Assembly (NCBI GenBank): GCA_964036045.1
Contig: OZ038393.1
Location: forward strand, 48,352,429-48,416,428
Direction: 5' to 3'
From: Eutreptiella sp. 'Long Island Sound 2002'
Taxonomy: Eukaryota; Euglenozoa; Euglenophyceae; Eutreptiales; Eutreptiaceae
Length of the DNA: 64,000 nucleotides
Position 1 is the first letter of the stretch, and every line of letters starts with the position of its first letter. The notes beneath the pieces are model-generated. The model was given only the letters and a program-made list of their open reading frames with translations. It had not been told where the DNA came from and did not search any database. This document shows positions 23,537 to 63,465 of this stretch, piece by piece. A program made the translations under genes and the position numbers.

Positions 23537-23574
<38 letters not shown>

Positions 23575-23592: not shown

Positions 23593-23644
<52 letters not shown>

Positions 23645-23867: not shown

Positions 23868-23914
<47 letters not shown>

Positions 23915-24114: not shown

Positions 24115-24115
<1 letters not shown>

Positions 24116-29438: not shown

Positions 29439-30882
29439 CTAACAACTACTTTGGTAGCTAACATACAAATCAAACGGATCTCCTATACCATCCGCTTCGT
29501 CGGAGGAAGACTGTGCTTCGTCAGGACCAGGGGCTGCTGCTGGGGCAGGGTCATCAACCCTTCGGCGTTTCTCAGCTCTGGGTTTTGGGGCTGGTTTGGC
29601 AGGACGTTTTGCTGCAGGCCTGTCTACCCGTCTCAGAGGCTCTCCCACTCGCCGTGCCCTCCGTTTGGGTGCTGGTTTTGCGGCAGCACCATTCTCTTTT
29701 TCACTGACCTTATCTAAAAAATCCTTGGCTGTCAAAAAGCCCCCGAGGCGCAGCGACCAAGGATCGTCCCGCGTGGCCGCACTGATGGCCCTGCCACTGC
29801 ACTGTGTTGAAGCATTGCTTTTCGATGACACCTGAGAGGGAGCTGCCGAAGAGTTTTGCGAAGAGCCTTGCGAAGAGCTTTGTGGAGGATCTTGCGATGC
29901 ATCAGGGCTGTGAGTAGGGCTGGCAGGGCAGGCACGGAAGTCCTGGTGCTGGATGCGCTCATGGGGACAATGTTCCAGAACATATTGGGGATCAAACGGG
30001 CTGATGCTACAGGACCTAAAGCCTGACCGAATGTTTCGTGGTGTAACTGCATCAAAATATGCATCTGTCCACAGTTCCACAAAGTCTGCAGGGGACGGGG
30101 CTCTGTGATGGTTTTTCCTTTTCCAGTGTTCTTCCTTTTTGCGAAACGAGGCCTTCAGTGCCCTGAAAACGGCTTTGTCCAGTTGCTGGATGACATCTGT
30201 CAGATGTCGGGGGAATACAACCACCTCTACACCCCAGGACTTCATTTTTTGCAGACCCTGCAGTGTGAGGTGCGTTTTGCTGCCATCCACTAGTAGCAAA
30301 ATGCATTTCTGAGGGGTACTGAGTGATTGTGTTTCTTTCACGAGCACTGTTTCCACCCACTCCAGGAAGACCTCTTGAGAGGACCACCCATCAGGCATTC
30401 CTTTCAGTGTCACTGGTAACTGTGCACGGAGGAACATGTCGCCTCTGATTTTTTTTTGTGTTCCATAGGAGTGCTGGTTTTGTGGCTTGGCCCTGTGCAT
30501 TGACAGCAACTATGGCGGTGATGTGCTGCCGCTGCCAGCCACGGCGTCGCGCCACAGTTTTTCTTCCCTTCCTCACCCACACACGCTGTCCCACGGTGGT
30601 GAACTGTCGAAAAAACCCTGACTCATCCTCGTTCCAGATATGGCAGGGGTTATAGGCAACTTTTTCTAAACCTGGCTTTAAATGATTATCAAAAAACTCT
30701 GTCCACTGCTGGGGGCTCAAACGGGCAGAGGCACGCTGCGTTTCAACATTTTGAGCAAGTCTTGAAACAAAGTCACTGTTGCGACGCTTAAACAGTTTCC
30801 ACCATGTCTTACCAAACTTACAAGGCACGTATGATTTTACGCGCCACGCAAAACGTTGCGCCGCGCGCAAATTTCTGACCAA
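29439..30882 (-). pseudogene. Pogo/jerky-like DDE transposase with one frameshift
   Basis: The N-terminal frame (30882-30391) begins in a CENP-B-type helix-turn-helix remnant (GKTWWKLFKRRNSDFVSRLA) and has the first catalytic Asp in HIWNEDESGFF. The C-terminal frame (30509-29439) has the second Asp in CILLLVDGSKTHLT and the third in HLTDVIQQLDKAVFRAL, giving the DDD triad usual for pogo-type DDE_1 enzymes. The tail is Ser-rich, then Lys/Arg/Pro-rich, then acidic. The two frames join at a run of eight A (plus-strand T8 near 30450), where one base is gained or lost. Such runs are also a common assembly error, so the gene may be intact. It cuts and pastes its own element by binding terminal repeats. 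Confidence 0.8.
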
Positions 30883-36371: not shown

Positions 36372-38450
36372 TACTGACGCGCTCCCGTGGGGGGCCTGGC
36401 CACGGGACGCTGCGGTGGACACGCGCAAGCAAGCAGGCAGGCAAAGCACTGCGCTCACAGGGGCATCATCACGCTCGTGTCATGTGACAAAGCGTTTCAG
36501 GATCCTTGCCACTCTGAAACAAGGGAACAAAAGTATGCACAGCAACACATCAGGATATGTACACATGGGGTGAAGACTGGACTGGGGTAAGGGCATCACA
36601 GGACAATAGACACTCAGTCCCAACTCATGTCCCAATCCCAGGTCCGACCCTCTCAGTGGCTGGCAGGGGCGGGGGCTCCAACACAACCCATGCCCTGCTC
36701 AGTCTGGACCCTGAAACCCTGCCAAAAGGGGAGGTGTCCCGCCCAGCCACAGGCGAGTTCCTGGGAACCAAGAGGGCTCCAAGGCCAACCAACAGTGGCT
36801 CCCTATGCTCCCTCAATGGCAGGTCCTAACTCCCCTCTGAGCCGGAGATAAGGCCCCGCCATTATCCCCTAGGAGTTGGTAGCTGAAAATGGGCTGTTTC
36901 AGCCCAAACTGATATTAGCTCGAAAAACTCCAAAATTGACCCCTCGTCGGGACCCGCCAGAGGTAGGGACGAGGCAACTGACCCTATGCCCTTCGAGTAC
37001 AAACCCCCTGGAGCCCTCACCCAACCTGGTTCCCCCTGAGGTCGCGGCATCAGGGCACCACGGGTTCGTCAAGTGGGGTCATGATGCCAAAATCACCAAA
37101 ATTGGCGTCATTCCCACGCGTGGCTCGCCCGGCCAGGGCAAGGCCAATGGCTCACAGGATAGGAGGCAGAACCCATTACCTCTATCTGAGTGCAGAACTT
37201 GGAATTAGGTCCGGGCTCTTTGTGGGCAGAGAGATATGGGGCCGCCAATTGACCACACGGGGGGCCGAAATTGGGGTCCCAAAAGGGGGTCATTTTGGAG
37301 GCTCAAAATGAGCCAAGATCCGGGGTACTCCCAATGATATATCTCCACGCCGGCTTGGAGATCGGATCCGCCATTCCATATGCGATCGACCGGCAGTCCA
37401 ACAGTGACTCCCATGCTCTTGGCCCTCAAAGATCTCCATGCCACTTGGCGTGGTGACAATCCAAATTGGGTCCAAAATTGCCAAAATGGCAAAATCGTCC
37501 ACACTCACCTTGGGCTAGCACCTTGACGAAGGCTGCTCCGCTTCGCCCACGTGGTGTGCGAACCATGGTGACCAATATCCATAACACCCATGTCATATAT
37601 AGTCCATTGGTCCATGCGTCCGGCGTGCACGAGGGGGCTGAACATGGTGCACGGCGGGCAGAAAATGTGGAAAATTGCTCAAAATGGCCGAAAATGCGCA
37701 CACTCATGGGTGCGGCAAATGAGGCACATGCCCGACTTGGACCGGAGTGTGCCATAGGATTGGTATCAAGTCATATGCGTTCAACATATCTTTTGGGCGT
37801 CGCCCAAACCCCTCCGGTTTTGGGAATGGCAGGGTCGCCAAGTGAGCCCATGATTTGGGATCGTCCCAAATCGCCAACATGGCGGCCAGGGTATGCCAAG
37901 CCCAAGAGGAGTTATTCGCCGGGTCCAAGATATGTTTGGCACCGAAGTATGTACCCTCATAACATACTTGGGTCATGATGTCAATTGAGCGCAACGTTGA
38001 GATACACGGTCGCCACTTGACATCATGACGGGCAAAAAACAGCAAAATTGGCGAAAAGACACGCAAAAGTGCCTTGAAAACTACACAAATATATTATAAT
38101 ATCTTCGGCTTGGATTGAGTAATCGACCAATCCTTCTAAACACAATGACTCGACACCAATGACCTTCGATTCCACATATGTGCTCCACTTGGGGCGCTTT
38201 GGAAGGCCGCGCGCGCTGCCTCCCAAGTGGGCACATGCAAATATGGAATATTGAAAAAAACACACCTTGCTGGCAACACATCGCTTCGGGAGCGCTCCAC
38301 AAGCGTCCCTTCACGAAGGTTAGGCTTGCGAGTGTTGGTTGGGAGTACAATGAAGAGCTTCGTGCGATATGGGGTCCATTGGCGGGTTAGTCTTGGAATG
38401 GTGCACCCGCCAAATGGGCACGTGATATGACACTAAATATGGCATACAAC
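36372..38450 (+). repeat. 2-kb dispersed repeat, copy 2
   Basis: Second copy of the repeat at 4412-6480, same orientation. It abruptly interrupts the gag remnant of element E, which suggests an insertion. Ends are approximate. Confidence 0.8.
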
Positions 38451-40841: not shown

Positions 40842-41894
40842 TCAGGCGTCCCTGGCTGCAATCGCCCGGGTGAGTGCTGCCAAGTCCGGGACATGGATCT
40901 TGGTCTTGTGCTTGCGGATGTAGTCCATGAAGGGGGTATTAATCTGCGGCACGAACGAGGAGACGGGTTCCCAGGTGTCGTGGGATGGCCCATAGCCTCG
41001 CCAACGAACCTTGAACTCCAGGCCTCCGGGTGCCGAGGCGTTCGGACGCTGGGCCAGGATCTTCTCGACGGTATAGTCGTCCTGCTCAGCGTAGTCGTCG
41101 TCCGAATCAGCTTCATGTGCGGCATAGTCCAGGGACACATGTTGGCCACAGAGGTCGGGTTCCCGCACACGGAGTTGACTCTCGTGGCGCCCCCGGAACT
41201 GTCCGTGACCCACCTTGATGCGGTAGGTGTCCTCACCAATCCTGCGGACCACCTCTCCAAGTGTGAACCAGGTTTTGGTGCGGTGGGTGCCCATCGGGCG
41301 GGGTCTGATTACCCACACCGGGTCTCCCACCCTGAACTTTTGCGCTGTCGAGCTCGGGGCGGACTTCTGACGCTCAGCATGCTTCTTCTCGAGCTGCTGG
41401 CGGATGTCCCGCGCCGTTGCCTCTTGCCGCGCAAAGAATTCCTTGGCGTCCATGGCCATGCCATCACCTGACAAGGGAAGTCCCCGACCAAGGGGGTCCC
41501 TGCCGAACAGAATCTGGTGAGGGGACAAACCACCCAGAGTGGGGGTGTCATGATGGCCCTTCAGAGCGGGCCACATCTCCTCAAACCAGTTCCGACGTGG
41601 ATTGGTGATTTGAATCTTGCGCAGCTTCTCGAACAGCTGCCTTCCAGCCACTTCAGCCCGGCCCCTGGACCGGCTGAGATAGGCGACGCTCTGGGCATGA
41701 CGTATTCCCATGAGGAAAAACATGGCCTTGAACCAGCCACCTGTAAACTGGGGCCCTCGGTCACTGCAAATGGTGCGGGGGATGTCAAAGACGGTCAGCC
41801 AATGACAAATCATCATGACTGCCACTTCCTTGGCAAGCAACCCTTTTTTGCGTGCTGGAACGGCTACTACGTAGCCGCTGTGGCGATCCACACA
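40842..41894 (-). CDS. Element A pol, 3' part: integrase core and chromodomain
   Basis: The segment starts in the integrase core with VDRHSGYVVAVPARKKG. The second catalytic Asp is in ICSDRGPQFTGGW; the Glu is in GRAEVAGRQLFEKL. After the DNA-binding region (KFRVGDPVWVIRPRPMG) there is a chromodomain with VEKILAQRPN, FKVRWRGYGPSHDTWEP and SFVPQINTPFMDYI. Chromodomains target Ty3 chromovirus integration to modified chromatin. The first catalytic Asp (MDVFSM) lies on the other side of element C. No stop or frameshift is seen within this piece. Confidence 0.9.
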   Translation of the reverse strand, partial: CVDRHSGYVVAVPARKKGLLAKEVAVMMICHWLTVFDIPRTICSDRGPQFTGGWFKAMFFLMGIRHAQSVAYLSRSRGRAEVAGRQLFEKLRKIQITNPRRNWFEEMWPALKGHHDTPTLGGLSPHQILFGRDPLGRGLPLSGDGMAMDAKEFFARQEATARDIRQQLEKKHAERQKSAPSSTAQKFRVGDPVWVIRPRPMGTHRTKTWFTLGEVVRRIGEDTYRIKVGHGQFRGRHESQLRVREPDLCGQHVSLDYAAHEADSDDDYAEQDDYTVEKILAQRPNASAPGGLEFKVRWRGYGPSHDTWEPVSSFVPQINTPFMDYIRKHKTKIHVPDLAALTRAIAARDA

Positions 41895-41935
41895 CACCTA
41901 TGATTTTAGCAGCTGTTTTTTCCCAAAATTCAAAA
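41895..41935 (+). repeat. Left terminal inverted repeat of element C
   Basis: 41 bases, from CACCTATGATTTTAG through TTCCCAAAATTCAAAA, exactly complementary in reverse to 51989-52029. The match ends abruptly at 41936. Confidence 0.97.
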
Positions 41936-42419
41936 TCATGCATTTTCGGAACCGCGATATCAAACTGTACACAGTAGTACTGTTGTTTTTATGTTTTCTC
42001 AAATTTTTATTAAAATTATGCTGTCGCTGAAGCTGGAGCCGCAGATAAACTGTCAGCAACTGCCGCGTACGCGAGTTTCAGATTCCCGACCGCCGTGCGC
42101 AATAGAAAATCGCCAAAAAGTCCACTTTTTTTCGCAGTTGGCAGCAAAGTAAAGGCATGAGCGTGGTCCCGAGATAAATACCTTGCTGCTGACCTAAAAA
42201 AATCCAGATTGGCAGGCACAGATTTGGAGAAATTCACGCTTCTCTACCCAAAAACCACTTTTTTACATGGTTTTAGGGTCTATGGAGGCCATATAGAGGG
42301 CCTTACAGGGCTGTAAGAGGTGGTATAGAGGTGATATATGAACAAATTGTCATCACCATTGGTAGAAGCCTACATGACAAGCGATGTTTTGCCTTTATTC
42401 TAGGCTATTCATCCCTTTC

Positions 42420-43965
42420 TCATGCACCATGGGGCCCAATATCCATATGGTTCATAGGTAGGGTTTTGATCACCTATCACCGTCCACACACATGTTTGGG
42501 GCTTGGGTGGGTATTGTATGCATTTGAATGATAAGAACTACATAAAATATGATAGTATGTGCATAAGAATGGGATGAAAGATGAACATTTGAGGTGTTTT
42601 TGGCCCTATTCTGCACCTTTTGTGGTCCATTTCCATATGGTTCATAGGTAGGCTTTTGCGTGCCTATCACCGTACACACACATGTTTGGGGCTTAGGTTG
42701 TTATTGTAAGCGTTTGTATGATAGGTCCTACATATAATATGATAGTATGTGCGTAAGAATTGGATGAACGATGAACATTTGAGGTGTTTTTGGCCCTATT
42801 TTGCACCGTTTGTGGTCCAATATCCATATGGTTCATAGGTAGGGTTTTGATCACCTATCACCGTCCACACACATGTTTGGGGCTTGGGTTGGTGTTGTAT
42901 GCATTTGAATAATAATAAGGACATAAAATATGATAGTATGTGCATACGAATGGGATGAACAATGTAGTTTTGAGGTGTTTTTGGCCCGTTTTTGCACCTT
43001 TTGCGCTCCATATCCATATGGTTCATATGTAGGGTTTTGATCACCTATCACCGTCCACACACATGTTTGGGGCTTGGGTTGGTATTGTATGCATTTGAAT
43101 GATAAGAACTACATAAAATATGATAGTATGTGCATAGGAATGGGATGAACGATGTAGATTTGAGGTGTTTTTGGCCCGTTATTGCACCTTTTGCGCTCCA
43201 TATCCATATGGTTCATAGGTAGGGTTTTGATCACCTATCACCGTCCACACACATGTTTGGGGCATAGGATGGTATTGTAAGCATTTGAATGCTGGGTAAG
43301 AAATAAAATATGATACTACGGGCACAAGCATGGGATGAACAATGTAGTTTTGAGGTGTTTTTGGCCCGTTTTTGCACCATTTGTGCTCCATATCCATATG
43401 GTTCATAGGTAGGGTTTTGATCACCTATCACCGTCCACACACATGTTTGGGGCTTGGGTTGGTATTGTATGCATTTGAATGATAAGAACTACATAAAATA
43501 TGATAGTATGTGCATAAGAATGGGATGAAAGATGAACATTTGAGGTGTTTTTGGCCCTATTTTGCACCGTTTGTGGTCCATTTCCATATGGGTCATAGAT
43601 GGGCTTTTGCGTGCCTATCACCGTACACACACATGTTTGGGGCTTAGGTTGTTATTGTAAGCATTTGTATGATAGGTCCTACATAAAATATGATAGTATG
43701 TGCATAAGAATGGGATGAACGATGAACATTTGAGGTGTTTTTGGCCCTATTTTGCACCGTTTGTGATCCAATATCCATATGGTTCATAGGTAGGCTTGGA
43801 ACTATTTGAGCCATTTGAGAATTTTCTTTCTCCGGGTGTCATCGTTGTACATAAAATATGATACTATGTGCATAAGAATGGGATGAGCGATGAACATTTC
43901 AGGTGTTTTTGGCCCTATTTTGCACCGTTTGTGGTCCATTTCCATATGGTTCATACGTAAGCAAC
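42420..43965 (+). repeat. 190-bp satellite array in element C
   Basis: The anchor CACCGTCCACACACATG (or CACCGTACACACACATG) recurs with its CGT at 42481, 42671, 42862, 43052, 43242, 43432 and 43622, a period of 190-191 bp. Each unit also has TCCATATGGTTCATAGGTAG, ATGATAGTATGTGCATA and GAGGTGTTTTTGGCCC. Units fall into two subtypes (GTTTTGATCACC and CTTTTGCGTGCC) that alternate irregularly. The last units lose the anchor. Minus-strand frames of about 69-82 codons recur only because of the repeat. The array lies between the left end and the first gene, where a promoter or transposase-binding region would be expected. Confidence 0.95.
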
Positions 43966-44139
43966 GATTGTCTTACTGCCTTCATGCCCTTGTTGCGTGC
44001 TTTTTGTGTGTATTATGCCTTCCTAGGTAGGGTGAGCAAAGGGTGAAAAGATAGTGAACTAAGGGTGAACGAATGGTCATGGGAGCATGCATGGCGACAA
44101 AATGTGATTTCCCTTTGGTACAACCCACAGGGCTAAGCA

Positions 44140-45027
44140 ATGGCTCCTTCCAAGAAGAAAAAGGTTGTGATTCCAAAGCCTGACATGCCAGCCTTGGTGC
44201 CTGCCGATTGTCATATAGGCAAGGGGGACGTGGAAGATGGGGCGGAACAAGGAGAAGGCGGAGCATGGGAAAATTGCGAAAGTTTGGACCCGGAGCTAGA
44301 AAGGCTCCTTGCAGGGCATTGTGTTAAGGAAGACCAAAGTGTTGAAGTCGGGACCTTCAATTACATCAAATGTGGCATGTCCACCAATGTGCAAACCGGT
44401 GAAAAGCGGGTCTTGTTTTGGTACGGAATGCTGATTATACCGAAAAAAATACCGGAACCAAACAAGAACGACCTATGCATGAGGTTCCCAAATAATTACT
44501 TCTATTGGTTCAAACGCGCTGACGTCTTCCCAACCCTTCCTCTTGGATTGCCTGCCTTCTTCAACGATGGGTGTGACGTCCCGAGTGATGAAACATCCGA
44601 CTACGGCGAGGCACCTTCTGATGAGAGCTCTGAACATGAAAGTAGTGATGATGAGGACGATGGTGACGATGGCGACAACTCGGAGGATGGCGCAAGTGGC
44701 ACACCCAAAGCCAAAAAGGAAAAGAACAAGAAAACTAAACCAAAGCCCCCAAAGTTGAGGAAGTATACCAAAAAGAGTAGGTCACCCGATGTGTCTGAGG
44801 AAGCGTTGGCATCAAGAATAGCCGAAGCAACTGAGCATATGACGCGTATGGAGCTGTTTAAGCAGGCAAGTGCTTACTCAAAACATTATTTGATCAAACT
44901 CTGCGAGAACCTGTGTGTTAGCGGTATGAGTTCCAAAACGATACCAGAGATTCTTCGAGCGCTTGGGGACAGAAGTAAGACTGGAGGCTTCACAATCCAA
45001 AAGCTGTTTCCACCGCACAAACCGCAA
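44140..45027 (+). CDS. Element C gene 1, first exon: NLS, acidic region, helical domain
   Basis: The ATG in AGCAATGGCTCC starts a protein beginning MAPSKKKKVVIPKPDMPALV. A compact domain follows (KCGMSTNVQTGEKRVLFWYG to NYFYWFKRADVF, residues about 78-132). Next are an Asp/Glu/Ser-rich stretch (about 150-190), a Lys-rich stretch (KKEKNKKTKPKPPKLRKYTK) and a helical segment (LIKLCENLCVSGMSSKTIPE, about 249-268) resembling a DNA-binding SAP-like helix pair. The frame could run to a stop at 45123, but CAA|GTGAGC at 45028 is a strong donor in phase 0, the same phase as the downstream repeated exons. I therefore end the exon at 45027. The basic start looks like a nuclear localisation signal. No family is recognised; a DNA-end-binding or accessory protein is an inference. 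Confidence 0.6.
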
Positions 45028-45302
45028 GTGAGCTTCAAACCGATGGACATATCAATGAGCAGCATTCGACAGGCATCTATTGCTGTTCAATGCTTGTTGA
45101 TGTTGTTGCTTGCGGTGCATTAAATGTTTGTGACTCACACATAGACCATCACCCCACCGCATGGGTGGCACAACCGGTGCATATCGCTGGCTGGGATTTG
45201 GGCCGGTGGGACACGCTTCATAGGCCAACAGTTCGGTGCTTTGTGTAACTTCGTGCCACTCAGGTTGAGAGGCCCAGAAAGGCAGAGAACCCATGTCCCC
45301 AG

Positions 45303-46921
45303 GAGCGCACGGAACGAGAGGAGGCGGAGAGGCGAGACAGAGCAGAAGAGGACAGAAAAAAGGCGGAGGCAGCGCACCGACCGAAGCAAGCGGATGAGGA
45401 GCAACAGCAAAAGGTAACGTTCCAAAGTTGTGCAGTTAGGGTCTTTCAATTCTGTGCATGCATATCGCGTTAATTTCTCTCCGACCGACCGAGATGGGAT
45501 TTTGATTTTTGCATGTCCCCAGGAGCGCACCGAACCAGAGGAAGCGGAGACGCGAGACGGAGCACAAGAGGACATAAAAAAGGCGGAGGCGGCAAAGCGT
45601 CAAAAGCAAGCGGATGAGGAGCAAGAGCAAAAGGTAACCTTCCAGGAGCGCACACGGAATTCTGCAGTTACGCTCTCACGATTCTGTGCATATGTATCGT
45701 GTTCATTTCTTTCCAATTTACGGAGATCAGATTTTGATTTTTGCATGTCCCCAGGAGCGCACCGAACGAGAGGAGGCAGACAGAAAGAAGGCGGAGGCGG
45801 CAGAGCGTCAAAAGCAAGTGGATGAGGAGCAACAGCAAAAGGTAACCATGCAAATTTCTGCACTACCGCTCTCTCTATTCTGTGCATACGTATCGTGTTC
45901 ATTTCTTTCCAATTGACGGAGATCGGATTTTGTTTTTTGCATGTCGCCAGGAGCGCACCGAACGAGAGGAGGCGGACAGAAAGAAGGCGGAGGCGGCAGA
46001 GCGTCAAAAGCAAGTGGATGAGGAGCAACAGCAAAAGGTAACCATGCAAATTTCTGCAGTACCGCTCTCTCTATTCTGTGCATACGTATCGTGTTCATTT
46101 CTTTCCAATTGACGGAGATCGGATTTTGTTTTTTGCATGTCGCCAGGAGCGCACCGAACGAGAGGAGGCGGACAGATAGAAGGCGGAGGCGGCAAAGCGT
46201 CAAAAGCAAGTGGATGACGAGCAACAGCAAAAGGTAACCATGCAAATTTCTGCAGTACCGCTCTCTTGATTTTGTGCATACGTATGGTGTTCATTTCTTT
46301 CCAATCGACGGAGATCGGATTCTGTTTTTTGCATGTCGCCAGGAGCGCACCGAATGAGAGGAGGCAGACAGAAAGAAGGCGGAGGCGGCAAAGCGTCAAA
46401 AGCAAGTGGATGAGGAGCAACAGCAAAAGGTAACCATGCAAAGTACTGCAGTAACGCTCTCTTGATTCTGTGCATACGTATCGAGTTCATTTCTTTCCAA
46501 TTGACGGAGATAGGATTTTGTTTTTTGCATGTCCCCAGGAGCGCACCGAACGAGAGGAGGCGGACAGAAAGAAGGCGGAGGCGGCAAAGCGTCAAAAGCA
46601 AGGGGATGAGGAGCAACAGCAAAAGGTAACCCTGCAAAGTTCTGCAGTAACGCTCTCTTGATTCTGTGCATACCTATCGTGTTCATTTCTTTCCAATTGA
46701 CGGAGATAGGATTTAGATTTTTGCATGTCCCCAGGAGCGCACCGAACGGGAGGAAGCAGAGAAGCGACACGAGAACCGCCAAGCGCAAAACGTCAACACG
46801 GCATCAGAGCGCAAGCGAGGGTCCCGACATTATCGCTCTTCCACCGCCTCCACCATTCAGCCGAAAGCAAACAGAGCCTCTCAAGGTTTTTGCATTCCTG
46901 TCACTGTACCCCTCAGCAAAA
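45303..46921 (+). repeat. Tandem array of eight exon-intron units in gene 1 of element C
   Basis: Eight coding blocks, each preceded by a C-rich acceptor (GTCCCCAG or GTCGCCAG) and, for seven, followed by GTAAC. Exons: 45303-45413, 45523-45633, 45755-45841, 45951-46037, 46147-46233, 46343-46429, 46539-46625, and a terminal one from 46735. The first two have 111 nt, the next five 87 nt. All are phase 0, so they can be joined or skipped without changing frame. From the third on the period is exactly 196 bp. The encoded unit is ERTEREEADRKKAEAAKRQK then QVDEEQQQK, a charged coiled-coil repeat. Introns are 109-121 nt and as similar to each other as the exons. The fifth exon has an in-frame TAG and the sixth an in-frame TGA. 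The last exon continues as RHENRQAQNV to a stop near 46925, or is spliced further. Confidence 0.85.
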
Positions 46922-47002
46922 TGTAGGATGATCTGCCTGTCCAACGGCCACCACATCAGCAACTCTTCAAAGCCTTGGCAACAGAGAACAGGATCCATGC
47001 GA

Positions 47003-47121
47003 GGTTTCATTGGCGTCAAAAAAGACGCAGAGCTGCGGGGTTCTGACAGCGTCATGCAGGGAGCCATGTGCTCTTGCGAGCTCCAAATACAGTGGCAGGG
47101 CGGCACTTGGGTGCAGGCACC
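47003..47121 (-). repeat. Inverted copy of part of the transposase-like ORF
   Basis: These bases are the reverse complement of about 47716-47838 inside the ORF at 47357-48973, nearly identical over about 105 bases. On the minus strand they encode the same residues (LPLYLELARAHGSLHDAVRT, then PQLCVFFDANE) as the plus-strand ORF. It looks like a recent local inverted duplication within element C. Confidence 0.9.
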
Positions 47122-47381
47122 AATCAGCGTTGTAGCAACTATTTCGCATACCCCGCCACGTTGCTGTAGGCTGTTTTTTGATTTTATTTTTCCTAAGATG
47201 CTAGAACCTTCCAGACCGGCAGCCATGTGCTCTTGCGAGCTCCAAATACAATGGTAGGGCGGTACTTGGGTGCAGGCACCAATCAGCGTTGTAGCAACTA
47301 TTTCGCATACCACTCCACGTTGCTGTAGGCTGTTTTTTGATTTTCTTTTTCCTAAGATGGTAGAACCTTCCAGACCGGGAC
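47063..47381 (+). repeat. 159-bp tandem duplication before the transposase-like ORF
   Basis: GCCATGTGCTCTTGCGAGCT starts at 47063 and again at 47222. Each copy runs through CACCAATCAGCGTTGTAGCA to TAGAACCTTCCAGACCGG with few differences. The second copy provides the ATG and first codons of the transposase-like ORF (ATGGTAGAACC); the first has ATGCTAGAACC. Confidence 0.9.
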
Positions 47382-48973
47382 GGCCCAAACTGCCTGAATG
47401 GCAGCTTTCAAAAAAATCTGTGGCCAACAGACGCAGCCTTGTGAGGTCGTATGCGAAGCAGTTGCATTGCGGGCACCTGATTGCGGAGCATGCAGTCAAG
47501 CGATCACTGAATCGAGACAGACTGCGGGCAAGACCGGCCACATTTGAGCAATTGAGGGATACCCTCATTGCAAAGTTTACGACCCATGATACATGGGAAG
47601 ATTTCATTCGCGCGCGCAGAAAAAGTGATGGCAATGGTCAGGGGGTGTATAGGACAGGCGTGACCAAACTCATGCAGCTTTTGACAGCCGACATGGGGAT
47701 TGCTACCACACCGGTAGGTGCGTACCTAGACCCGAGTACCGCCCTTCCACTGTATTTGGAGCTCGCAAGAGCACATGGCTGCCTGCATGACGCTGTCAGA
47801 ACCCCGCAGCTCTGCGTCTTTTTTGACGCCAATGAAATGTATGGGCGCCGCAAATGCCAGGTGCTGAGCGTACATCTACCGCAAGCACGTCAGCCACACC
47901 AACTCCTTCTGCAACTTCCCCTTGCGAGATACCTGGACCAGGATGATCACATCACAACCTCGTCGCAGTTTGAGCGCATGGACCTGCTTCCTGCCCTTGA
48001 GAAGGCGTTGGAGAGCGGCTGGGGTGGTGAAAGCATGGAGCTGGTTTTTTCTCCTGATTATGCCGCCTACTACCGAACCACAGGGACGCCTCCACCAACA
48101 GCAGATTGCTGTTGTGTGGAGTGCTATGGTTCAAAAAAACTCTGGAAGCACCCTGATTGGATACGGCAGCCTTTGCGGGATTTTCACAACTACCCTTCAC
48201 GCTGCGCTCCCTTCTTTCGCCTCATGAAATGTCGCCTCAACAGCGTGTATGATGTACACCACTGCAACAATCACGTGTTGGCAAACGGGGTGATCCACCC
48301 CCTGTGGTTCTGGACCAGAGCAAACCTGCCTGAGGAATACACTGTCCAATTGAAGACAATTTTGGAGAAACATTTTACGCGCTTTCCATACTACCCACCT
48401 TTCAAAGAAGCTATTGGCAAAAGGGACTGGTCACCCCCAAACATTGTCACGAAGGATATCCTGAAGGAGGATTCTTTTTGGAAAGCCCTAGCTGATCTGT
48501 TCCCACGAACGGCAAATGGTCTCACAGTCAAACGGAACGGTGAGGTTCTGCAGGACCCAATACACCGATATTTGAAACTGATGCGGATTCTGATGGTCCA
48601 GCTGAACAGCTGGAGTCCGGAGGGTGTTGACCAGCGTGATGACATGTGCCGTGAAGCACACCAGCTCTTTTGGGACCTCGGGTTTCCCCTGCGCCGGTTT
48701 GGAGTCCCAATTCATTACTTTCTGGAGCACTACACCCCCCGGCTACGCAAACATGGCAACCTCGTGGGCATGTCATCGGAGGGGGGCGAGCATGTCTACC
48801 AGCCCCACTCCAAGATCGTGCAAAAACGCCCCTCTCGCCCACGAGGGAAATGCCCAGTGGGGCTGGTGGAGATCATGAAGCACGTTAGGCTCTGGTTGGG
48901 GCTGTGGAGGCAAGGCTGGCTGTCTCCAACTCTCTGGTACACGCATGAACCGAAATTGCCAGCTGACAATTAG
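47357..48973 (+). CDS. Element C transposase-like protein, family unknown
   Basis: From the ATG in CTAAGATGGTAGAA the protein has about 538 residues, starting MVEPSRPGRPKLPEWQLSKK; GRPKLP is AT-hook-like. The frame stays open 29 codons upstream, so an earlier start or an upstream exon is possible. Conserved-looking acidic motifs are CVFFDANEMYG (about residue 153), YDVHHCNNHVLANGVIHPLW (about 298) and MSSEGGEHVYQPHSKI (about 473). A D-D-E order with a final SExGExH is what one expects of an RNase H-fold transposase with a helical insertion, but I cannot name the superfamily. A Cys-rich patch (DCCCVECYG, about 255) may bind metal. The frame is intact over 1.6 kb. Given exact terminal repeats and no other candidate, this is the most probable transposase of element C. 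Confidence 0.6.
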   Translation: MVEPSRPGRPKLPEWQLSKKSVANRRSLVRSYAKQLHCGHLIAEHAVKRSLNRDRLRARPATFEQLRDTLIAKFTTHDTWEDFIRARRKSDGNGQGVYRTGVTKLMQLLTADMGIATTPVGAYLDPSTALPLYLELARAHGCLHDAVRTPQLCVFFDANEMYGRRKCQVLSVHLPQARQPHQLLLQLPLARYLDQDDHITTSSQFERMDLLPALEKALESGWGGESMELVFSPDYAAYYRTTGTPPPTADCCCVECYGSKKLWKHPDWIRQPLRDFHNYPSRCAPFFRLMKCRLNSVYDVHHCNNHVLANGVIHPLWFWTRANLPEEYTVQLKTILEKHFTRFPYYPPFKEAIGKRDWSPPNIVTKDILKEDSFWKALADLFPRTANGLTVKRNGEVLQDPIHRYLKLMRILMVQLNSWSPEGVDQRDDMCREAHQLFWDLGFPLRRFGVPIHYFLEHYTPRLRKHGNLVGMSSEGGEHVYQPHSKIVQKRPSRPRGKCPVGLVEIMKHVRLWLGLWRQGWLSPTLWYTHEPKLPADN

Positions 48974-49152
48974 CGGTATACCACCTTCTTGCCACCACAT
49001 CCGTTGGCTTGTGATAGATTTACTATTTTTGGCCATTTCTTGCTAATGTTGCTAATCTTTCATTGTTTATGGATTGGGGTAGATTTTGGAACGTATTCAT
49101 GCTGATATTTTCAGTACCCCTCTGTATCTCTCTCCACTTCTGTCGTCCACAG

Positions 49153-50439
49153 GATCCATTGAAGAGAGCCAATGGGGTGCCGCTGGCGTTGATGAAGCCC
49201 CTGATTGACGCAATTCAAAAATTGGGCAGAAGTCTGTGGTACGACGTGACTGGGGGCTCAAGGGCCTGTGGAGTCCCTGCTGCTGACATCATCAAGCATC
49301 TTGAGCGGATCTGCCCTGTGCTCGGAATGGCTTGCCCCGGTGCTGCCCAAGTGAAAACGCTCACAGATCGTCCGGTCCCCTGTCAGCTGGCTAACATGGA
49401 GAGCGTGCTAATGATTTGTCTTGTGTGCTTGGGCCGAGAGGCCAGTCATTTTTGCGTAATGCATACTCTTGACACAATTCAGTACAGCGCAACCCCTCTG
49501 TCACTGTCACCAGGTGACACTTTGTTTCTGCCAGTTGAAAAGCACTGGATGCTGCCAAAGTTGTGTCCAGGCATTAATTTTTTTGCTGCTGTACCATTCT
49601 CGAATTCGCAAAATGCACCATTCGTGCCCGACGATAGCTGTTGGATCAGCAAACATTTACGGCCGTCCAGTGTGACCTGGAGTGACCTGCAGCACGGTGA
49701 CACTGTGCAGATGTATGACGGCCTAAGCGATGCTTCGGTTCTGCTGCACACCCAATTGTTGTGGAGGCCCACTGTGCGTTGTCCCGGTCTGTCGCGAAAA
49801 GGGCAGCCCCTGTTCCCAGGCAGGTGGACAGTCCAGCTTGAACGGGGCGTCACTGTTTTAGTATTAGCCGTGATTCCTACCAATCCGGCTTCCTGGGATG
49901 TTGTCGGCGTCTGTGCATTTTGCTGTACGGCAGGGCAGGCAGACTTCAGATCCCTTCTACGGTTTTCAGAATCCAGCCTCAGAGAAATTGCCCTGGCTGA
50001 CAAGCAGGGCTGTGAAGCAGGGAAGACCTGGATGGAAGGTTTGTATTCCGGGCAGTGCATTTATTTCCAGTTTCCTCAGAGGTGTCAGTCCTGCGGTCCG
50101 CAACAGGCCAAGCGTGAACTGGCATATGAGGACAGTCGGCGGAGCACACGTCTCCCTGAGATCACAAACCTCAGTACCACAGCGGTGAAGAAGGAATCTG
50201 TCACTACCAATGGGAAACCCAAACCGAACCCGAAACGGAATTCGACCGCAAAGCCACCACCAAAACCGAAACCAAAACGGAAACCAAAACCAAAACCAAA
50301 AGGCCATAAAAACAACAGCCCACCAAGCAAACAGCCAAAGAAGGAAGAGACGGGCAGTGGGACGGTAAAACAAGAGGCTGACCTTGTTCAGCGGCTCTTG
50401 GCTGCACTGCAACAAACAACCCAACAACAAAACACCTGA
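49153..50439 (+). CDS. Element C second large protein with Lys/Pro-rich tail
   Basis: A pyrimidine tract and GTCGTCCACAG end at 49152, a good acceptor, and the exon opens with DPLKRANGVPLALMKPLIDA in phase 0 to the longer frame that starts at 49063. About 428 residues follow. A folded part has many Cys and Trp (RACGVPAADIIKHLERICPV; LSPGDTLFLPVEKHWMLPKL; GRWTVQLERGVTVLVLAVIP), then the disordered tail KPNPKRNSTAKPPPKPKPKR continuing as Lys-Pro dipeptides to about residue 385, and a last helix LVQRLLAALQQTTQQQNT. The upstream exon was not identified; joining to the transposase-like ORF is possible. No family is recognised. The tail suggests nucleic-acid binding. Confidence 0.55.
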   Translation, partial: DPLKRANGVPLALMKPLIDAIQKLGRSLWYDVTGGSRACGVPAADIIKHLERICPVLGMACPGAAQVKTLTDRPVPCQLANMESVLMICLVCLGREASHFCVMHTLDTIQYSATPLSLSPGDTLFLPVEKHWMLPKLCPGINFFAAVPFSNSQNAPFVPDDSCWISKHLRPSSVTWSDLQHGDTVQMYDGLSDASVLLHTQLLWRPTVRCPGLSRKGQPLFPGRWTVQLERGVTVLVLAVIPTNPASWDVVGVCAFCCTAGQADFRSLLRFSESSLREIALADKQGCEAGKTWMEGLYSGQCIYFQFPQRCQSCGPQQAKRELAYEDSRRSTRLPEITNLSTTAVKKESVTTNGKPKPNPKRNSTAKPPPKPKPKRKPKPKPKGHKNNSPPSKQPKKEETGSGTVKQEADLVQRLLAALQQTTQQQNT

Positions 50440-50529
50440 ACAAACCCCCTGAAGCGCAAACGCGGGCAAGGTGAAAACAGTGAAAATACCCGAAAAAAAG
50501 GAAGGGTTAAACGGGAGTCAGGAGAGCAC

Positions 50530-50916
50530 ATGTCTCAGCAGGTGTCTCAAGTGTCTCAACAGGTGTCTCCGAACCCCCCTGGGCAGGTGTTTCAGCAGGA
50601 GCAGCAGCAGCAGCAGCAGCAGCGGCAGCAGCAGCAGCAGCAGCAGCAGCAGTTGCAGCTGCAGATGCAGATGCAGACCCAAGTGCAGCAGCAGCAGCAG
50701 CACCAGCAGATGCACCAGCAGGCCCAGCAGCAGCAGCAGCAGCAGCAGCATATGGGTCCTTTGCAAATGAACATGCCAGTTGCCATGCCCATGGCCATGC
50801 CAATGCCAGCCATGAACATGCACCAGCTCCAAATGCCCATGCAGCCCATGCAGCAGCTTTGTTCGACGATGAGCAGCATGCAGCCCTTTGGTTTTCCAAT
50901 GTACCGGCCCTATTAG
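50530..50916 (+). CDS. Element C Gln/Met-rich low-complexity protein
   Basis: A 128-codon frame from MSQQVSQVSQQVSPNPPG contains a CAG tract (about 50597-50750) coding for interrupted polyglutamine. A Met/Pro/Gln region follows (MPVAMPMAMPMPAMNM, QMPMQPMQQL) and the end is GFPMYRPY. Because the Met-rich part is not a plain trinucleotide repeat yet keeps an open frame to a clean end, I think it is really translated. It may be the last exon of the gene just upstream, whose stop is 90 bases before. The composition is prion-like. Frames of Leu, Ala or Ser runs on the same DNA are shadows. Confidence 0.5.
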   Translation: MSQQVSQVSQQVSPNPPGQVFQQEQQQQQQQRQQQQQQQQQLQLQMQMQTQVQQQQQHQQMHQQAQQQQQQQQHMGPLQMNMPVAMPMAMPMPAMNMHQLQMPMQPMQQLCSTMSSMQPFGFPMYRPY

Positions 50917-51214
50917 CAGCGCCTGCATATATGTCTTTTGTTTTTTTCCCTCTCCCAAAAAAGAACTTTGTGCTGTTTAGAGTTTGGTGATTTAAATTTA
51001 TTGCCGTGTTTGTGAATACGGCAGGATCATATCTCTGGAAGTGCAGATGCCTGAGCTCTGTGTTCATTATGCACTTTGTGCGATGTTGAACTGATTGAGA
51101 GAACCAGATGCTCAGATGCTCAGAGTGGTGCGGCTTGTTGCGCTTGTCCTTTGTTTTCATTACCGTTGGTGGTTCCTTGGATTTGAATGCACGAACGTTT
51201 TGTAGGATCGTCAG

Positions 51215-51935
51215 GACAAAAAAAAACAGTTTTCGCCCAAAAATGGCCAAAAATTGCCAATTTTTTGCCGAAAATAGTGTTTTTTTAGCCGGGGTCGTGA
51301 GTTTTAGGGCCCCATACCCTATTCTTAGGGTGCCCAATCCAGTGAAATGTGTTTGGAATTGTATTGGAGCAACCTATTGGGTGTTGCAGGGCCGTCAGCA
51401 CAGAAAAAAAACAGTTTTAGTCCAAAAATGGCCAAAAATTGCCAGTTTTTGGCCAAAAACAGTGTATTTTTGGAGAACAATCGGGTAGGAGGAACCCCCC
51501 TCTCCTATTATGAGCGTGCAGAATAAAAGAAAAAAGGTTTCCTTTGGTCTTTTTGGGTTCAAAACCTCTTTTCATGGTATTTTTGTGCCTGTACTATAGG
51601 ATACAGGTACGCTGGTGTGCAGCACTGTTCTGTAGCACCACCCCACAACAGACAAAAGTACTCCAAAATAGGCCGAGTTCCAGGGTTTTTGATGGTTTAG
51701 GAGAAAGCTCGGGTGGGAAGAACCCCCCCATCCGTATTTTGGGGCAAGAGAATCCCAACAAGAGGGCAATTTCTGTCGAAAATCCTCTATAGGCAGGTAC
51801 ACTGGTGTGCAGCACTGTTCTGCAGGACCAGCCCAGAGCAGGCAAAAATACCCCAAAATAGGCCAAATTTCAGGGTTTTTGATATTTTTGGACAAAAGCC
51901 GGGTAGGAGGAACCCCCCCCCCCTATTTTGGGGCC
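51215..51935 (+). repeat. Right subterminal repeats of element C, about 180-190 bp period
   Basis: Two pairs: AAATGGCCAAAAATTGCCA with flanking AAAAACAGTTTT at about 51220-51260 and 51405-51445; and CTGGTGTGCAGCACTGTTCT with AAAATAGGCC and CAGGGTTTTTGAT at 51612 and 51802. Spacing is about 180 and 190 bp. This mirrors the 190-bp satellite near the left end in spacing but not in sequence. Frames here (51544-51994, both strands) are repeat-driven. Confidence 0.8.
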
Positions 51936-51988
51936 GTAGAAATCAAAAAAGTAGGTCATTTCCCGCGAAAATCTGCCTTTTGCTGACT

Positions 51989-52029
51989 TTTTGAATTTTG
52001 GGAAAAAACAGCTGCTAAAATCATAGGTG
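51989..52029 (-). repeat. Right terminal inverted repeat of element C
   Basis: Exact reverse complement of 41895-41935, ending GCTAAAATCATAGGTG. The next base, A at 52030, equals the base before the left end (A at 41894). Confidence 0.97.
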
Positions 52030-52692
52030 AAAGGACCACACAGTCAAAGGTCTCCTTGCCAATGTGAACTTCGGGCATGGAGAAGACGTCCATGGCCACG
52101 CTCTCCATGGGCTGGTCAGGCACCGGAGTCCGTTGGGCTTCCCCCTTGACGTTCCGGTTGTCGGGATTGCAGGCCTGACAGACCGAGCAACCCTTTCTGA
52201 CCTTCTTGATAGTGCTGTAGAGATTGATCTGGTCGATTTCGAACCGGCGCTGCATGTCCAGGGCTTGCTTCATGACCCCTGGGTGCATCATGTGGCGGTG
52301 CCAAGACTCACATAGCTCGAGCACTCGGGACTCTGGGACCAGCAGCTTACCATTCCGGTAGAGCTTGCCATCTTCCTCAGTCAGCCCCTTTGGCCACTTC
52401 TGCCCGTCATCCGGGTCGGTCACAGCCCTATATTCGGCCTCAAAGGCCTCAGACTTAGCGTAGTCGTCGGTCCAGTCGTCCTGGAGGCAAGACTCAGGGA
52501 AGAGGTGCTTGTGGGACTCAGCTCCATCGGGGGCGAGTACTCTGACCGCTCTGCCCATCCTCGTTCCGAGTGGGGCATCCGCAGCCATGACAGCGAAGCA
52601 TTTAACACCCTCCTCCTCCAACAGGCGCTCCATATCTATGATCCTCTTGGCCTCAGCGGTCTCAGCCTCATCGCCATGGGCAGACACGTCTG
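52030..52692 (-). CDS. Element A pol, middle part: linker and integrase zinc domain
   Basis: Reading on from RNase H (across element B) the segment has a linker (VSAHGDEAETAEAKRIIDME), then LYRNGKLLVPESRVLELCES. The integrase HHCC zinc domain follows: HRHMMHPGVMKQALDMQRRF, then CSVCQAC. It ends with the start of the core, MDVFSMPEVHIGKETFDCVV, where the Asp of DVF is the first catalytic residue. It stops at element C after VVL. The longer frame that appears to start at 52849 uses LTR bases of element B and is artificial upstream of 52692. Confidence 0.9.
52688..52692 (+). repeat. Target site duplication of element B, left copy
   Basis: GTCTG immediately before the LTR, identical to 63466-63470. 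Five bases is the usual length for Ty3/Gypsy integration. Confidence 0.95.
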
Positions 52693-53225
52693 TGAAAGTG
52701 CTGCCCTGGGTCGTTGATGGTGCCGGAGGGCTCGGGGCCGGCAAGACCAGTGGAGCAGGCACGCGAGGAGTCGACCTGAACGCTGCTATTGGGGGTAGAA
52801 CCGGAGACTCGGACACCAGCGGAGGCAAGAGCAGCAACAACTGAAGCAAGATCCATGTTGAGTGTTATCCGGCAGAAAATCCCAGTCTATAAAGAAAATT
52901 GATGCGGATTTTATTATGCACATCTGAGTGTCCATATCTGTCTGAAAAGATTTAAATAAATCCGATTGTGAAAAATATTTGGCCGATCTGGCCCGCGAGC
53001 GCGCGTCAGCGGCGAATGGCGATTCCAGGCAAATGATCGGAACGCGGCGGATTTACGGAGAATGGACCGCGGAATCAGATCCGGCATATCAGAAATATAT
53101 AGGTCTGATCCTGAGACTGAGCTGCGAGGCGGCGATTCCGCCGAAGCAAAGAAAATGACCAAAATGTAGCCAATCTGGGTTAGATCAGTGAAAATCTGAG
53201 CAGATGGGGGTTAGCCGCACTTACA
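52693..53225 (-). repeat. 3' LTR of element B
   Basis: 533 bp, minus strand TGTAAGTGCGGC...GCACTTTCA. It includes an ATG (52856) that begins a copy of the gag N-terminal frame. Confidence 0.97.
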
Positions 53226-53240
53226 CTCCCCCTCCAAAAA
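53226..53240 (-). other. Polypurine tract of element B
   Basis: Minus strand TTTTTGGAGGGGGAG lies immediately upstream of the 3' LTR. It is the expected primer for plus-strand DNA synthesis. Confidence 0.85.
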
Positions 53241-54832
53241 CACACTGGGGTGTGTCGCTACGTCAACGAAGAACGTAGTGCGGGTAAGTCCCAGAAAAGA
53301 ATAGAAATGTAGCCTCGATGGGGCGAAATCTGCTTGATCTGACCTGATTTGGGCCGAATTGACACTGAATCAGGCTGGATGAACCTGAAATGAGACAGAA
53401 TGAGGAGTGACGAACAGTCCTCCGTGCAGTACGACATTAGGTTAAGGGCTAACAAGCATGTAAACGTATCGAGAATCGATACCAAACCATGCACTGGTTG
53501 AGAATGAGGTAGATTATTGGTGGATTGAGTGGGGGAATCAAGAAATGGAGTGACATCTCAGCGCTCTGGCACAGTTTCGCTGTCGGGGGCACGCTACGGT
53601 GTCCTCGCCGAACTCTACATCGTGTTACTCCCGCTTTTCTCGTTCTGAAAAGTGCAGCATGTGCTTCAGATTTGGCGCATCTGGTGGATGATCACAAGAT
53701 TCAGCAAGATTGGGAATCAAATTGAGCAGAGATGAAGGAGATTAAACAATCACAGAGAGGGAAAACAAATACAAATGTAGTCTACAGACCCTAAGTGCAC
53801 AGAAGATCATAAGCGTCAACGAAGTTAAGCAAAGCTGTCGACAGATCTTCGAGGAATGAGAAGAGATGACAAGGAAATCAACCTAAATTGTCCTAAAATG
53901 AGTAAATTCCCTGAGATGAAGGTGAAATGAAGCGGAATGTCTAAAATTGAACCTACCAACACTTTCGTTTAGACTAAAGTTAATATATATTGTCGTTTAT
54001 TCAGCTCAATTGTGCTTTCCGGCACGTTGGTTCGCGAGCATCCAACAGATTCCATCAAAATGTGGATCATGTGATGATGCATCATGATGGGACATGCTGG
54101 CCCTGGATCCTTGGCATGTAACGCGCCGAAGGTTCGCTGAAGGCGCTTTACTGACAGTATATAACTGAGAGACACCGAATTTACAGTGGCGGTGGTGTCA
54201 ATCGACTTGGGCAAGGCCAATCTTTCGATGGAGTCCCACAAGACACTTGGATTCACCATTTTCAACAGTTTCAGGTCGGATTGAGCTCACATTGGCGTGT
54301 GCCAAAAATACAACGAAGCTTACGGACTTCAGAGGTTGCTGTTAGAAGTCCCTAGAGCTCCTATGTGAAGGTTGTCTGAACAATTGACGTCTGGGTTTCG
54401 TGCAACAGTGGCAGCATGATGGACAAACCTGAGGAATTCAAGGTAAATTCAAGGAATCTGGATCTGAATCTGGACCTTGACTTCAGCATCACGGCAAATG
54501 AAGGTAAGATCTGAGTTCCTGGCGTCGCAACTGGTGCAGCCAGTACTACAGGGGGTGCCTGTAGGGGTGAATGTCACCGGCCGGTGTTTTTACTATGTAC
54601 ATTTGCTTCCATCTGCACGAGTAGCCAAATTCCAAAAATGCACAGACCAACAGAGACAAGATTACCCCGAATCTGCCTGAATTAAGCCTGAGTTTGGTTT
54701 TTTCTGAACACGGCAGCACACTCCGTGGCTTTCGGCAGCGTATCTACGCCTTGTCTGCCGAACGGAGACCAAAAAAAAAGTTGATTGACGTCAAATTATC
54801 AAACATTTGCAGTTCTCCACATCAGTTCGAAA
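53241..54832 (-). other. 3' untranslated region of element B
   Basis: About 1.6 kb between the end of the chromodomain frame and the polypurine tract. I see only short frames. Ty3 elements often have little sequence here, so a non-coding 1.6 kb is long; it could hold regulatory RNA or a decayed extra gene. Confidence 0.55.
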
Positions 54833-55944
54833 TCAGGAAGAATGAACAGTGGATTGAGCAGAATGTGGTTGGGGCGAGGCTGAAGTCGGCCACGCACGAA
54901 TACATGTGACCACCAACCTGTCTGGTCGGACCCTCGTACGGCTTGGGCGCTGCAAATCAGCGGCCGAACTTGAAGCTTGGTCTTCATTTGGCTCCTGGGC
55001 TGGCCTGACCGCAGGAGGGGGGATCGACGGATCAGCCCTGGAATGTGGATGCTGAGGGCCGTAAAAGGCTGGATCTCGATTCACCACAGGTCTTTTTCCG
55101 TCGCTCTCCACCTGTCTGTCTGGTTTCGACAAACAGTCTGTCAGGAGTACGCCAATTTCGGGGTGCTTCTTGAGGAAGTCGATGAACCCCTTGGTGTACC
55201 CATGGACAAAAGAATGGGCTGGTTCCCAGTTGTTGTGACTGGAATCAAAGCCCCTCCACTCACACAGAAATTCCCATTCGCCCTTGGCGTCACGTCTTGC
55301 TTCAACAATCCTCTTGAGTTCGTACTTCCCCCCTTCGATGACCCGATCGGACAAAATTTTCGAAGTCCAAAAAAAAGGTTTAACTTGATCCTTGGGGGAG
55401 GGGATCTCTCTCTTGAGGCGATCGCCCGAAACGTCAAATTCCTGCTGACATCCACACGAATCCTCCACCTGTTCTCACCAAGATGCGCTGTAACAGCGAA
55501 TGGCCCCTCCCACAAGGGAAGAAGCTTATCATCTCCGTCCAGGGTGGTTTCGGATTTTCGAAGCCAAACTCGATCATCGACTTCAAAATTGTGGGGGTTT
55601 TTTCGGCCTTGATTCTGGACCCAAAGCCAGTCAGCTTGATGCTTCTCGATTAATTTGGAGACAGTTTTTTCTGCTCGTTGAACTTCGTCCAAAGACAACG
55701 AAGCATCTTTACAGGGGCGAGGATTATTCAACGGCATGTTCCACCAACACTTCTTTCGTCCAAAGACAATTTCATTTGGAGAAAGGCCATGATTCAAAGG
55801 CGTGTTGTGGTAACGGCGAAGCATGGCGAAAAGAATCTCAAGCCAATGGAAATCCTTTTCACTCGCGAGCTCCTTACGAAGCATATTTATAAGTGAGCGA
55901 CCGGCTCTTTCGCCAGGCAGCGCTCGATGCGAGTGGATTTCACA
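54833..55944 (-). CDS. Element B pol, 3' part: integrase end and chromodomain (stop and frameshift)
   Basis: This continues integrase in the same frame after the TGA at 55947-55945. The catalytic Glu is in ALPGERAGRSLINMLRKELA; later NTPLNHGLSPNEIVFGRKKC and VDDRVWLRKSETTLDGDDKL are typical of the integrase C-terminal region. Near 55370 there is a run of eight T on the minus strand (A8 on plus). The chromodomain is in another frame from there: YELKRIVEARRDAKGEWEFL, then CEWRGFDSSHNNWEPAHSFV. The last 110 residues are polar and end at 54833. A single indel at the T8 run would restore one frame. Confidence 0.85.
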
Positions 55945-60063: not shown

Positions 60064-60066
60064 CTA
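60064..60066 (-). promoter_or_regulatory. In-frame UAG between gag and pol, candidate readthrough site
   Basis: Minus strand GCC TAG GGG AGC. Gag (GGQNA) and pol (GSHENRPSQGDF) are in the same frame with no other stop for the next 1,370 codons. A single UAG followed by G is the arrangement used by gammaretroviruses for readthrough. Readthrough here is an inference; no structure was modelled. Confidence 0.7.
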
Positions 60067-62932: not shown

Positions 62933-63465
62933 TGAAAGTGCTGCCCTGGGTCGTTGATGGTGCCGGAGGGCTCGGGGCCGGCAAGACCAGTGGGGCAGGC
63001 ACGCAAGGAGTCGACCTGAACGCTGCTATTGGGGGTAGAACCGGAGACTCGGACACCAACGGAGGCAAGAGCAGCAACAACTGAAGCAAGATCCATGTTG
63101 AGTGTTATCCGGCAGAAAATCCCAGTCTATGAAGAAAATTGATGCGGATTTTTTTATGCACATCTGAGTGTCCATATCTGTCTGAAAAGATTTAAATAAA
63201 TCCGATTGTGAAAAATATTTGGCCGATCTGGCCCGCGAGCGCGCGTCGGCGGCAAATGGCGATTCCAGGCAAATGATCCGAACGCGGCGGATTTACGGAG
63301 AATGGACCGCGGAATCAGATCCGGCATATCAGAAATATATAGGTCTGATCCTGAGACTGAGCTGCGAGGCGGCGATTCTGCCGAAGCAAAGAAAATGACC
63401 AAAATGTAGCCAATCTGGGTTAGATCAGTGAAAATCTGAGCAGATGGGGGTTAGCCGCACTTACA
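62933..63465 (-). repeat. 5' LTR of element B
   Basis: 533 bp, minus strand TGTAAG...TTTCA, same length as 52693-53225. It carries the promoter by definition; I could not fix the start site, although minus-strand AT-rich words (AAAAATCCGCATC, TTTATTTAAATC) are present in its middle. Confidence 0.97.

Follow-up and report, generated by a model that had tools for sequence, protein, structure and literature searches.

What kind of DNA transposon duplicates a single base pair of its target? The question is raised by a 10.1-kb transposon in a 64,000-nucleotide stretch of the genome of Eutreptiella sp. 'Long Island Sound 2002' (C16:48352429-48416428; genome of 2.28 Gb in 2,205 contigs), which we call the window. 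The transposon spans positions 41895-52029 (10,135 bp), has identical 41-bp terminal inverted repeats and belongs to a young, high-copy family whose complete insertions are flanked by duplications of 1 bp or, less often, 2 bp. We hold it fairly probable that it is a cut-and-paste DDE (Asp-Asp-Glu) transposon with a 1-bp stagger, remotely allied to RAG/Transib and CACTA-Mirage-Chapaev (CMC) and outside each named family.

The transposon has exact ends and interrupts an integrase gene

The terminal repeats are exact over all 41 bp, as the original prediction for this locus had held, and both termini start CACCTATG, that is, with CAC (CACCT). Within the window the first 21 bases of the terminus occur only at the two ends (at most 3 mismatches allowed; mean of 0 in 100 shuffles), and a scan of viral contigs for these bases gave no match. 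Judging from Pfam matches and reading frames, the insertion splits an integrase that belongs to a chromodomain-bearing retrotransposon of the Ty3 type: one flank holds a chromodomain above the Pfam cut-off together with a weak rve match below it, and the other flank holds a weak H2C2 zinc-domain match, likewise below the cut-off. When 10,134 to 10,137 bases were excised computationally across 90-base flanks, the integrase frame (...KETFDCVVL followed by CVDRHSGYVVAVP...) was regained solely by excising 10,136 bases, the very number given in the original prediction. The rejoined integrase reads ...FDCVVLCVDRHSGYVVAVP..., with a spacing equal to that of VNGVLLIQCRHSGY in the neighbouring retroelement. 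Because only this excision restores the frame, the duplication at the window copy is 1 bp (A).

On the + strand the transposon has three coding units, here called genes 1 to 3 (at least three on one strand had been predicted). Distinct subterminal arrays are present at both ends, also as predicted: a 190-bp array on the left and different repeats on the right.

Insertions duplicate one base pair, rarely two, of a palindrome-like target

The original prediction called for flanks to be compared across copies and expected a target duplication of one base or none. We compared two sets of flanks. For the first, we used the 29 of 31 assembled pairs that had both ends inside the fetched stretches (L017 had no end in the fetched stretch, L031). 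We found that 25 of these 29 complete insertions match at one base and that the other 4 match at two bases, not one, while random re-pairing of the flanks (2,000 trials) gave one-base matches in a mean of 7.2 and a maximum of 15 of 29. The duplicated base among the 25 one-base insertions was A in 7, C in 7, T in 6 and G in 5. The second set comprised 10 pairs of neighbouring exact ends from the genome-wide end list. All 8 pairs less than 12 kb apart have a one-base match, and two of these have a two-base match as well; a 24.8-kb pair matches solely at two bases, and a 23-kb pair shows no match of either length. We judged that this last pair does not bound a single element: of its two inner ends, one is of the right-end type and the other resembles neither type. 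Pooling both sets, 33 of 38 complete insertions have a one-base duplication and 5 of 38 a two-base duplication only (38 of 39 if the rejected pair is included). The single base that had been expected is seen in most of these insertions. The basis of the 1-bp claim is the flanks of occupied sites and the single integrase frame. Among the complete copies read, nearly all have exact transposon ends.

The target also has a preferred sequence. Aligned on the duplicated base, the 25 one-base insertions give the palindrome-like consensus CCMHNDKGG. Chi-square values against background (3 degrees of freedom) are 15.8, 24.2 and 14.3 at outward positions 1, 2 and 4, weaker at position 3 (8.4) and at most 6.8 at positions 5-20. 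The leading bases at positions 1-4 agree between the two sides of the target, which were derived independently. A symmetric complex that joins two strands one base apart would predict such a palindrome-like target. To our knowledge, no superfamily has 1-bp duplications. A phrase search of the literature for 1-bp duplications retrieved no DNA transposon and one LINE-1 report; it covered open-licence papers and is weak evidence of absence, and the same phrasing with 2, 3, 4, 5 or 8 bp retrieves 75 papers.

The family is young and present in many copies

Searching the genome with the 41-bp repeat, another step that the original prediction had proposed, we found 563 exact occurrences of the end and 0 of the reversed pattern. 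For gene 2, there were 1,469 first-look candidates genome-wide. The best 80 of these (including the window copy) were scored; all are full-length and 96-100% identical, and 60 of the 80 are stop-free. A chromosomal copy may be counted again among them where it also stands on an unplaced contig. Seventeen gene-2 copies diverge from their majority sequence by a mean of 0.70%. Of the 20 loci fetched around ends, near-complete copies were found at six (L009, L010, L012, L015, L016 and L018) and internally deleted ones at several. As to cut-and-paste movement, what was seen are internal-deletion copies and target-site duplications.

Of note, L019 shows the same transposon end with an identical 20-base flank at 3796 and 9600, 5.8 kb apart, a local duplication that takes in an insertion boundary. 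As to the host, a 25-mer of the Euglena gracilis spliced leader occurs 2,990 times in the genome and its reversed form 0 times, which points to a host at or near E. gracilis; the dinoflagellate spliced leader had 0 matches in a search confined to the window.

Gene 2 encodes a candidate transposase with RAG1-like residue spacing

Gene 2 contains D157, D234-x18-C253-x2-C256, D-x2-H-C at 299-303 and H453-x4-H458-x19-E478. Mouse RAG1 (letters from PDB) contains D600, D708-x18-C727-x2-C730, D-x2-H-C and H937-x4-H942-x19-E962. The core pattern from the second Asp to the Glu (D-x18-C-x2-C...H-x4-H-x19-E) arose in 12 of 100,000 shuffles of gene 2, and the pattern extended by the first Asp, D-x2-H-C and SEGxE, additions that were picked after looking, in 0 of 100,000. 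Local alignment of the C-terminal 99 residues places H453, H458 and E478 on RAG1 H937, H942 and E962 (p = 0.003 by shuffling); the same block aligns out of register with a CACTA consensus (p = 0.08). Whole-length local alignment of gene 2 with RAG1 gave p = 0.04. Gene 2 also has GRPK at residues 8-11, and GRP[RK] near the N-terminus appeared in 109 of 100,000 shuffles. RAG1 and Transib are reported to share a conserved GRP in their N-terminal binding domain (PMC9435367). We think it likely that gene 2 encodes a DDE transposase, and we see an even chance that it is akin to the CAC-ended group. A match of this open reading frame (ORF) to a named transposase family with usual termini, which would have refuted the original prediction, was not seen among Pfam and PDB families; the prediction had missed the RAG1-like spacing and, with it, possible remote CAC-ended kin.

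Several results weigh against a RAG1-like transposase. The motif was noticed by eye first and tested afterwards. Around D157 and D234 there is no likeness beyond spacing, these blocks aligning to RAG1 no better than shuffles do, and the D157-D234 distance is 77, compared with 108 for D600-D708 of RAG1. Searches of Pfam, NCBIfam, PHROGs and PDB gave no usable match for gene 2, and the genome searched with RAG1 gave no match. With gene 2 included, a RAG1 C-terminal profile scored HzTransib at 13.7 bits instead of 21.7 and lancelet RAG1L at 55.6 bits instead of 67.5, in a MAFFT alignment that had shifted the first histidine. Two single-sequence AlphaFold models of gene 2 had predicted local distance difference test (pLDDT) scores of 34.5 and 33.8, too low for a fold search. 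Finally, gene 2 shows no sign of purifying selection within the family: the 17 copies carry 100 nonsynonymous and 30 synonymous singletons, close to the neutral expectation of 2.4-3.2, in a sample biased in that 15 of the 17 chosen copies are stop-free. The gene-2 copies are near-identical. Scans of viral contigs, genome contigs and plasmids with gene 2, which detect close relatives only, found no relative.

Genes 1 and 3 and the remaining structure of the transposon

The features of the transposon and of its insertion site are collected in Table 1. The left subterminal array contains six TACCTATGAA and five CACCTATCA, both of them near-copies of the terminus but oriented oppositely to each other.

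Table 1. Features of the transposon and of the gene that it interrupts (window coordinates).
Feature	Span	Strand	Evidence
Host retrotransposon: remaining integrase core and chromodomain, interrupted gene	40842-41894	-	Pfam, frame arithmetic
Target-site duplication (A), left copy	41894-41894		Integrase frame; flank reading
Left terminal inverted repeat, 41 bp, begins CACCTATG	41895-41935	+	Exact repeat; 563 genomic copies of end
Left subterminal array, 190-bp units, near-copies of terminus in both orientations	42439-43962		Repeat analysis
Gene 1 first ORF, 327 amino acids, acidic, lysine-rich	44140-45120	+	Intact in 7/8 copies read
Gene 1 array, seven exon-like units, two with stops in window copy	45303-46625	+	Repeat analysis, copy comparison
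Inverted copy of gene-2 part (47722-47837), 109/116 identical	47005-47120	-	Repeat analysis
Gene 2, probable transposase, 538 amino acids; GRPK 8-11, D157, D234, C253, C256, H453, H458, E478	47357-48973	+	ORF, pattern
Gene 3 as readable in window	49153-50439	+	ORF; start ~49153
Right subterminal repeats (families D8, D10), unlike left array	51465-51961		Repeat analysis
Right terminal inverted repeat, 41 bp	51989-52029	-	Exact repeat
Target-site duplication (A), right copy	52030-52030		Integrase frame; flank reading
Host retrotransposon: initial part of same integrase with H2C2 zinc domain	52031-52692	-	Pfam, frame arithmetic

Downstream of its first ORF, gene 1 consists of exon-like units of 111 or 87 nucleotides, in a single phase and with a period of mostly 196 bp. 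The number of units matched varies among copies from 4 to 9. In 5 of 8 other array-bearing copies the matched units are stop-free; the five include one copy in which the frame of a unit is shifted. The gene-1 protein has apparently been lengthened via duplication of whole exons together with introns. The original prediction included introns, and the sequence suggests that the transposon does contain them.

Gene 3 meets a stop in the window copy, and 6 of 6 other copies have no stop at that place. Its open frame in five other copies scanned has 587 codons in three, 570 in one and 35 in one; the 587-amino-acid frame reaches the equivalent of ~50913 and has a lysine- and glutamine-rich end. The window copy is probably not intact, because gene 3 is stop-interrupted and two of the seven gene-1 units carry stops. 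Pfam recognised no transposase, Kelch or other family above cut-off in the gene 1 first ORF or in gene 3, NCBIfam and PHROGs gave weak matches only for genes 1 and 3, and a scan of viral contigs with gene 3, which detects close relatives only, found no relative. We also considered genes 2 and 3 as one spliced protein, and treat them as separate because none of the 112 ways of reading them jointly offered a convincing splice donor and acceptor.

The inverted piece of gene 2 lies upstream of gene 2, and is found in the other gene-2-bearing copies read as well. The part of gene 2 that it copies codes for the first of the candidate catalytic Asp residues. It is possible that this piece yields double-stranded RNA against the transposase, as a self-silencing hairpin.

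Other features of the window

An apparently complete long terminal repeat (LTR) retrotransposon occupies 52693-63465 (end approximate), with terminal repeats that are 98% identical and a 5-bp GTCTG duplication; it adjoins the Ty3 element that the transposon interrupts and is probably nested inside it. A separate DNA transposon is marked by a DDE_1 transposase match at 29442-30509 on the - strand (Pfam E-value 2.6e-16). An apparently intronless nuclear gene for the complex I 49-kDa subunit (nad7-type) lies at 20617-22044 on the - strand (Pfam E-value 8.8e-107). A direct repeat pair of 2 kb, 88.6% identical and 32 kb apart, is found at 4416-6458 and 36375-38422. An array of a 147-bp unit, itself made of 21-bp GGAGGGAGT-rich repeats, extends over 24710-25717, with related runs at 23312-24115.

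Proposed mechanism and alternative explanations

In the mechanism that we propose, the product of gene 2 is a DDE transposase (D157, D234 and E478) with an RNase-H fold and a zinc-bound insertion. This protein would bind the 41-bp ends, with help from the subterminal arrays and perhaps from the coiled-coil-like protein of gene 1, and would cleave at the CACCTATG ends. A symmetric complex would join the two ends to opposite strands of the weakly palindromic CCMHNDKGG, 1 bp or occasionally 2 bp apart, and gap repair would then leave the 1-bp duplication. The ends, the copy number, the deletion derivatives, the duplication length and the target preference were observed; we infer that gene 2 is the transposase, its DDE chemistry and kinship, movement by cut-and-paste and what genes 1 and 3 do. 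That the family forms a new eukaryotic DDE superfamily, a deep-branching relative of RAG/Transib and CACTA whose ends are joined 1 bp apart, is in our judgment evenly balanced.

Much of the same evidence would be expected of a very diverged CACTA/CMC member that kept the machinery and acquired altered ends and a shortened duplication: the CAC end, the subterminal repeats of the terminal motif, the accessory gene, the many deletion derivatives, the 2-bp part of the duplications and the D[FY]xAY after the second Asp, which resembles the CACTA consensus. We nevertheless consider this unlikely, since the termini are CACCT, neither CACTA nor CACTG, Pfam gives no Transposase_21 match, alignment to the CACTA consensus has p = 0.80 over the whole length and p = 0.08 at the C-terminus, and 1 bp is the rule among the duplications. 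A true Transib/RAG-like transposon whose duplication had shortened from 5 to 1 bp is, we believe, improbable: all 38 complete insertions have duplications of 1-2 bp and none has one of 5 bp, profile similarity is absent and the HzTransib score falls, and Pfam recognised no Kelch-type gene, although the spacing of zinc-binding and catalytic residues, the GRPK and the CAC end would all fit.

The very short duplications and the occasional 2-bp cases could also be accounted for with no concerted strand transfer at all, if a nuclease made a symmetric break with a 1- or 2-nucleotide overhang and the excised element were ligated into it by end joining. Trimming of the ends would then be expected, yet nearly all of the complete copies read have exact ends, and we give this explanation little credence. 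The transposase could, finally, be the product of gene 1 or gene 3 rather than gene 2, as a recognised domain is found in none of the three proteins and genes 1 and 3 are likewise largely intact in other copies. A catalytic-type pattern was seen in gene 2 alone, genes 1 and 3 not having been searched for one, and we regard this as the least probable of the explanations.

Should a DDE transposase with a 1-bp stagger indeed move this element, several consequences would follow. Duplication length reflects the distance between the points where the two active sites strike the target. We know of no DDE transposase with a stagger of one base pair or less, and this would be the shortest known to us. 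A 1-bp stagger severely constrains the geometry of the strand-transfer complex, whose structure would probe bending or opening of the target DNA. If the RAG1-like pattern is true homology, an early-branching protist lineage joins the family ancestral to adaptive immunity, and the ancestry of the V(D)J recombinase gains a new branch. A high-copy, apparently recent family might also serve as a native means of tagging or of delivering genes in the host.

Comparison with known systems

Tc1/mariner, PIF/Harbinger/Spy, hAT, Mutator, piggyBac, KDZ/Zisupton, Polinton and Helitron share with this transposon class II mobility and, mostly, inverted ends. Their duplications measure 2 bp (TA) in Tc1/mariner, 3, 2 or 0 bp in PIF/Harbinger/Spy, 8 bp in hAT, 9 bp in Mutator, 4 bp (TTAA) in piggyBac, 8 bp in KDZ/Zisupton, 6 bp in Polinton and 0 bp in Helitron. 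Neither these lengths nor the end sequences of the eight groups fit. The original view that no known superfamily fits is supported: the termini and the 1-bp duplication match none known to us, and Pfam finds a transposase in none of the three proteins.

The closer comparisons are with the two CAC-ended groups. Like RAG1, Transib and RAG-like elements (ProtoRAG, AanRAGL), the transposon has CAC at its extreme ends, as in the heptamer of the recombination signal sequence (RSS), and like mouse RAG1 its gene 2 has the D-x18-C-x2-C and H-x4-H-x19-E spacing and an N-terminal GRP motif. Unlike them, it has perfect, symmetric 41-bp ends and no detectable profile similarity, and a RAG2-like Kelch gene, as in RAG1L-RAG2L elements, was not recognised by Pfam in the gene 1 first ORF or gene 3. 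Its duplications are 1 bp (33/38) or 2 bp (5/38), whereas those of Transib and RAG-like elements, including pelagophyte AanRAGL with ends starting CACACCCAAACCT, are 5 bp (PMC4411706, PMC7204232 and PMC9435367). An RNase-H survey places RAG1 with the Chapaev family (PMC3985635).

With CACTA (En/Spm) and CMC elements, the transposon shares large size, a CAC end, subterminal repeats of the terminal motif, an accessory gene and internal deletion derivatives. It differs in its termini (CACCT; theirs CACTA or CACTG) and in its duplications of 1 bp, rarely 2 (theirs 3 bp, with a range of 2-4 bp; 3 bp for CACTA in PMC4158355). In addition, PF02992 is not matched, and gene 2 has H-x4-H, unlike the H-x3-H of the CACTA consensus. 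The transposon thus looks like a CAC-ended cut-and-paste transposon, and we file it in neither RAG/Transib nor CACTA because its duplications differ from those of both groups and its ends from those of CACTA.

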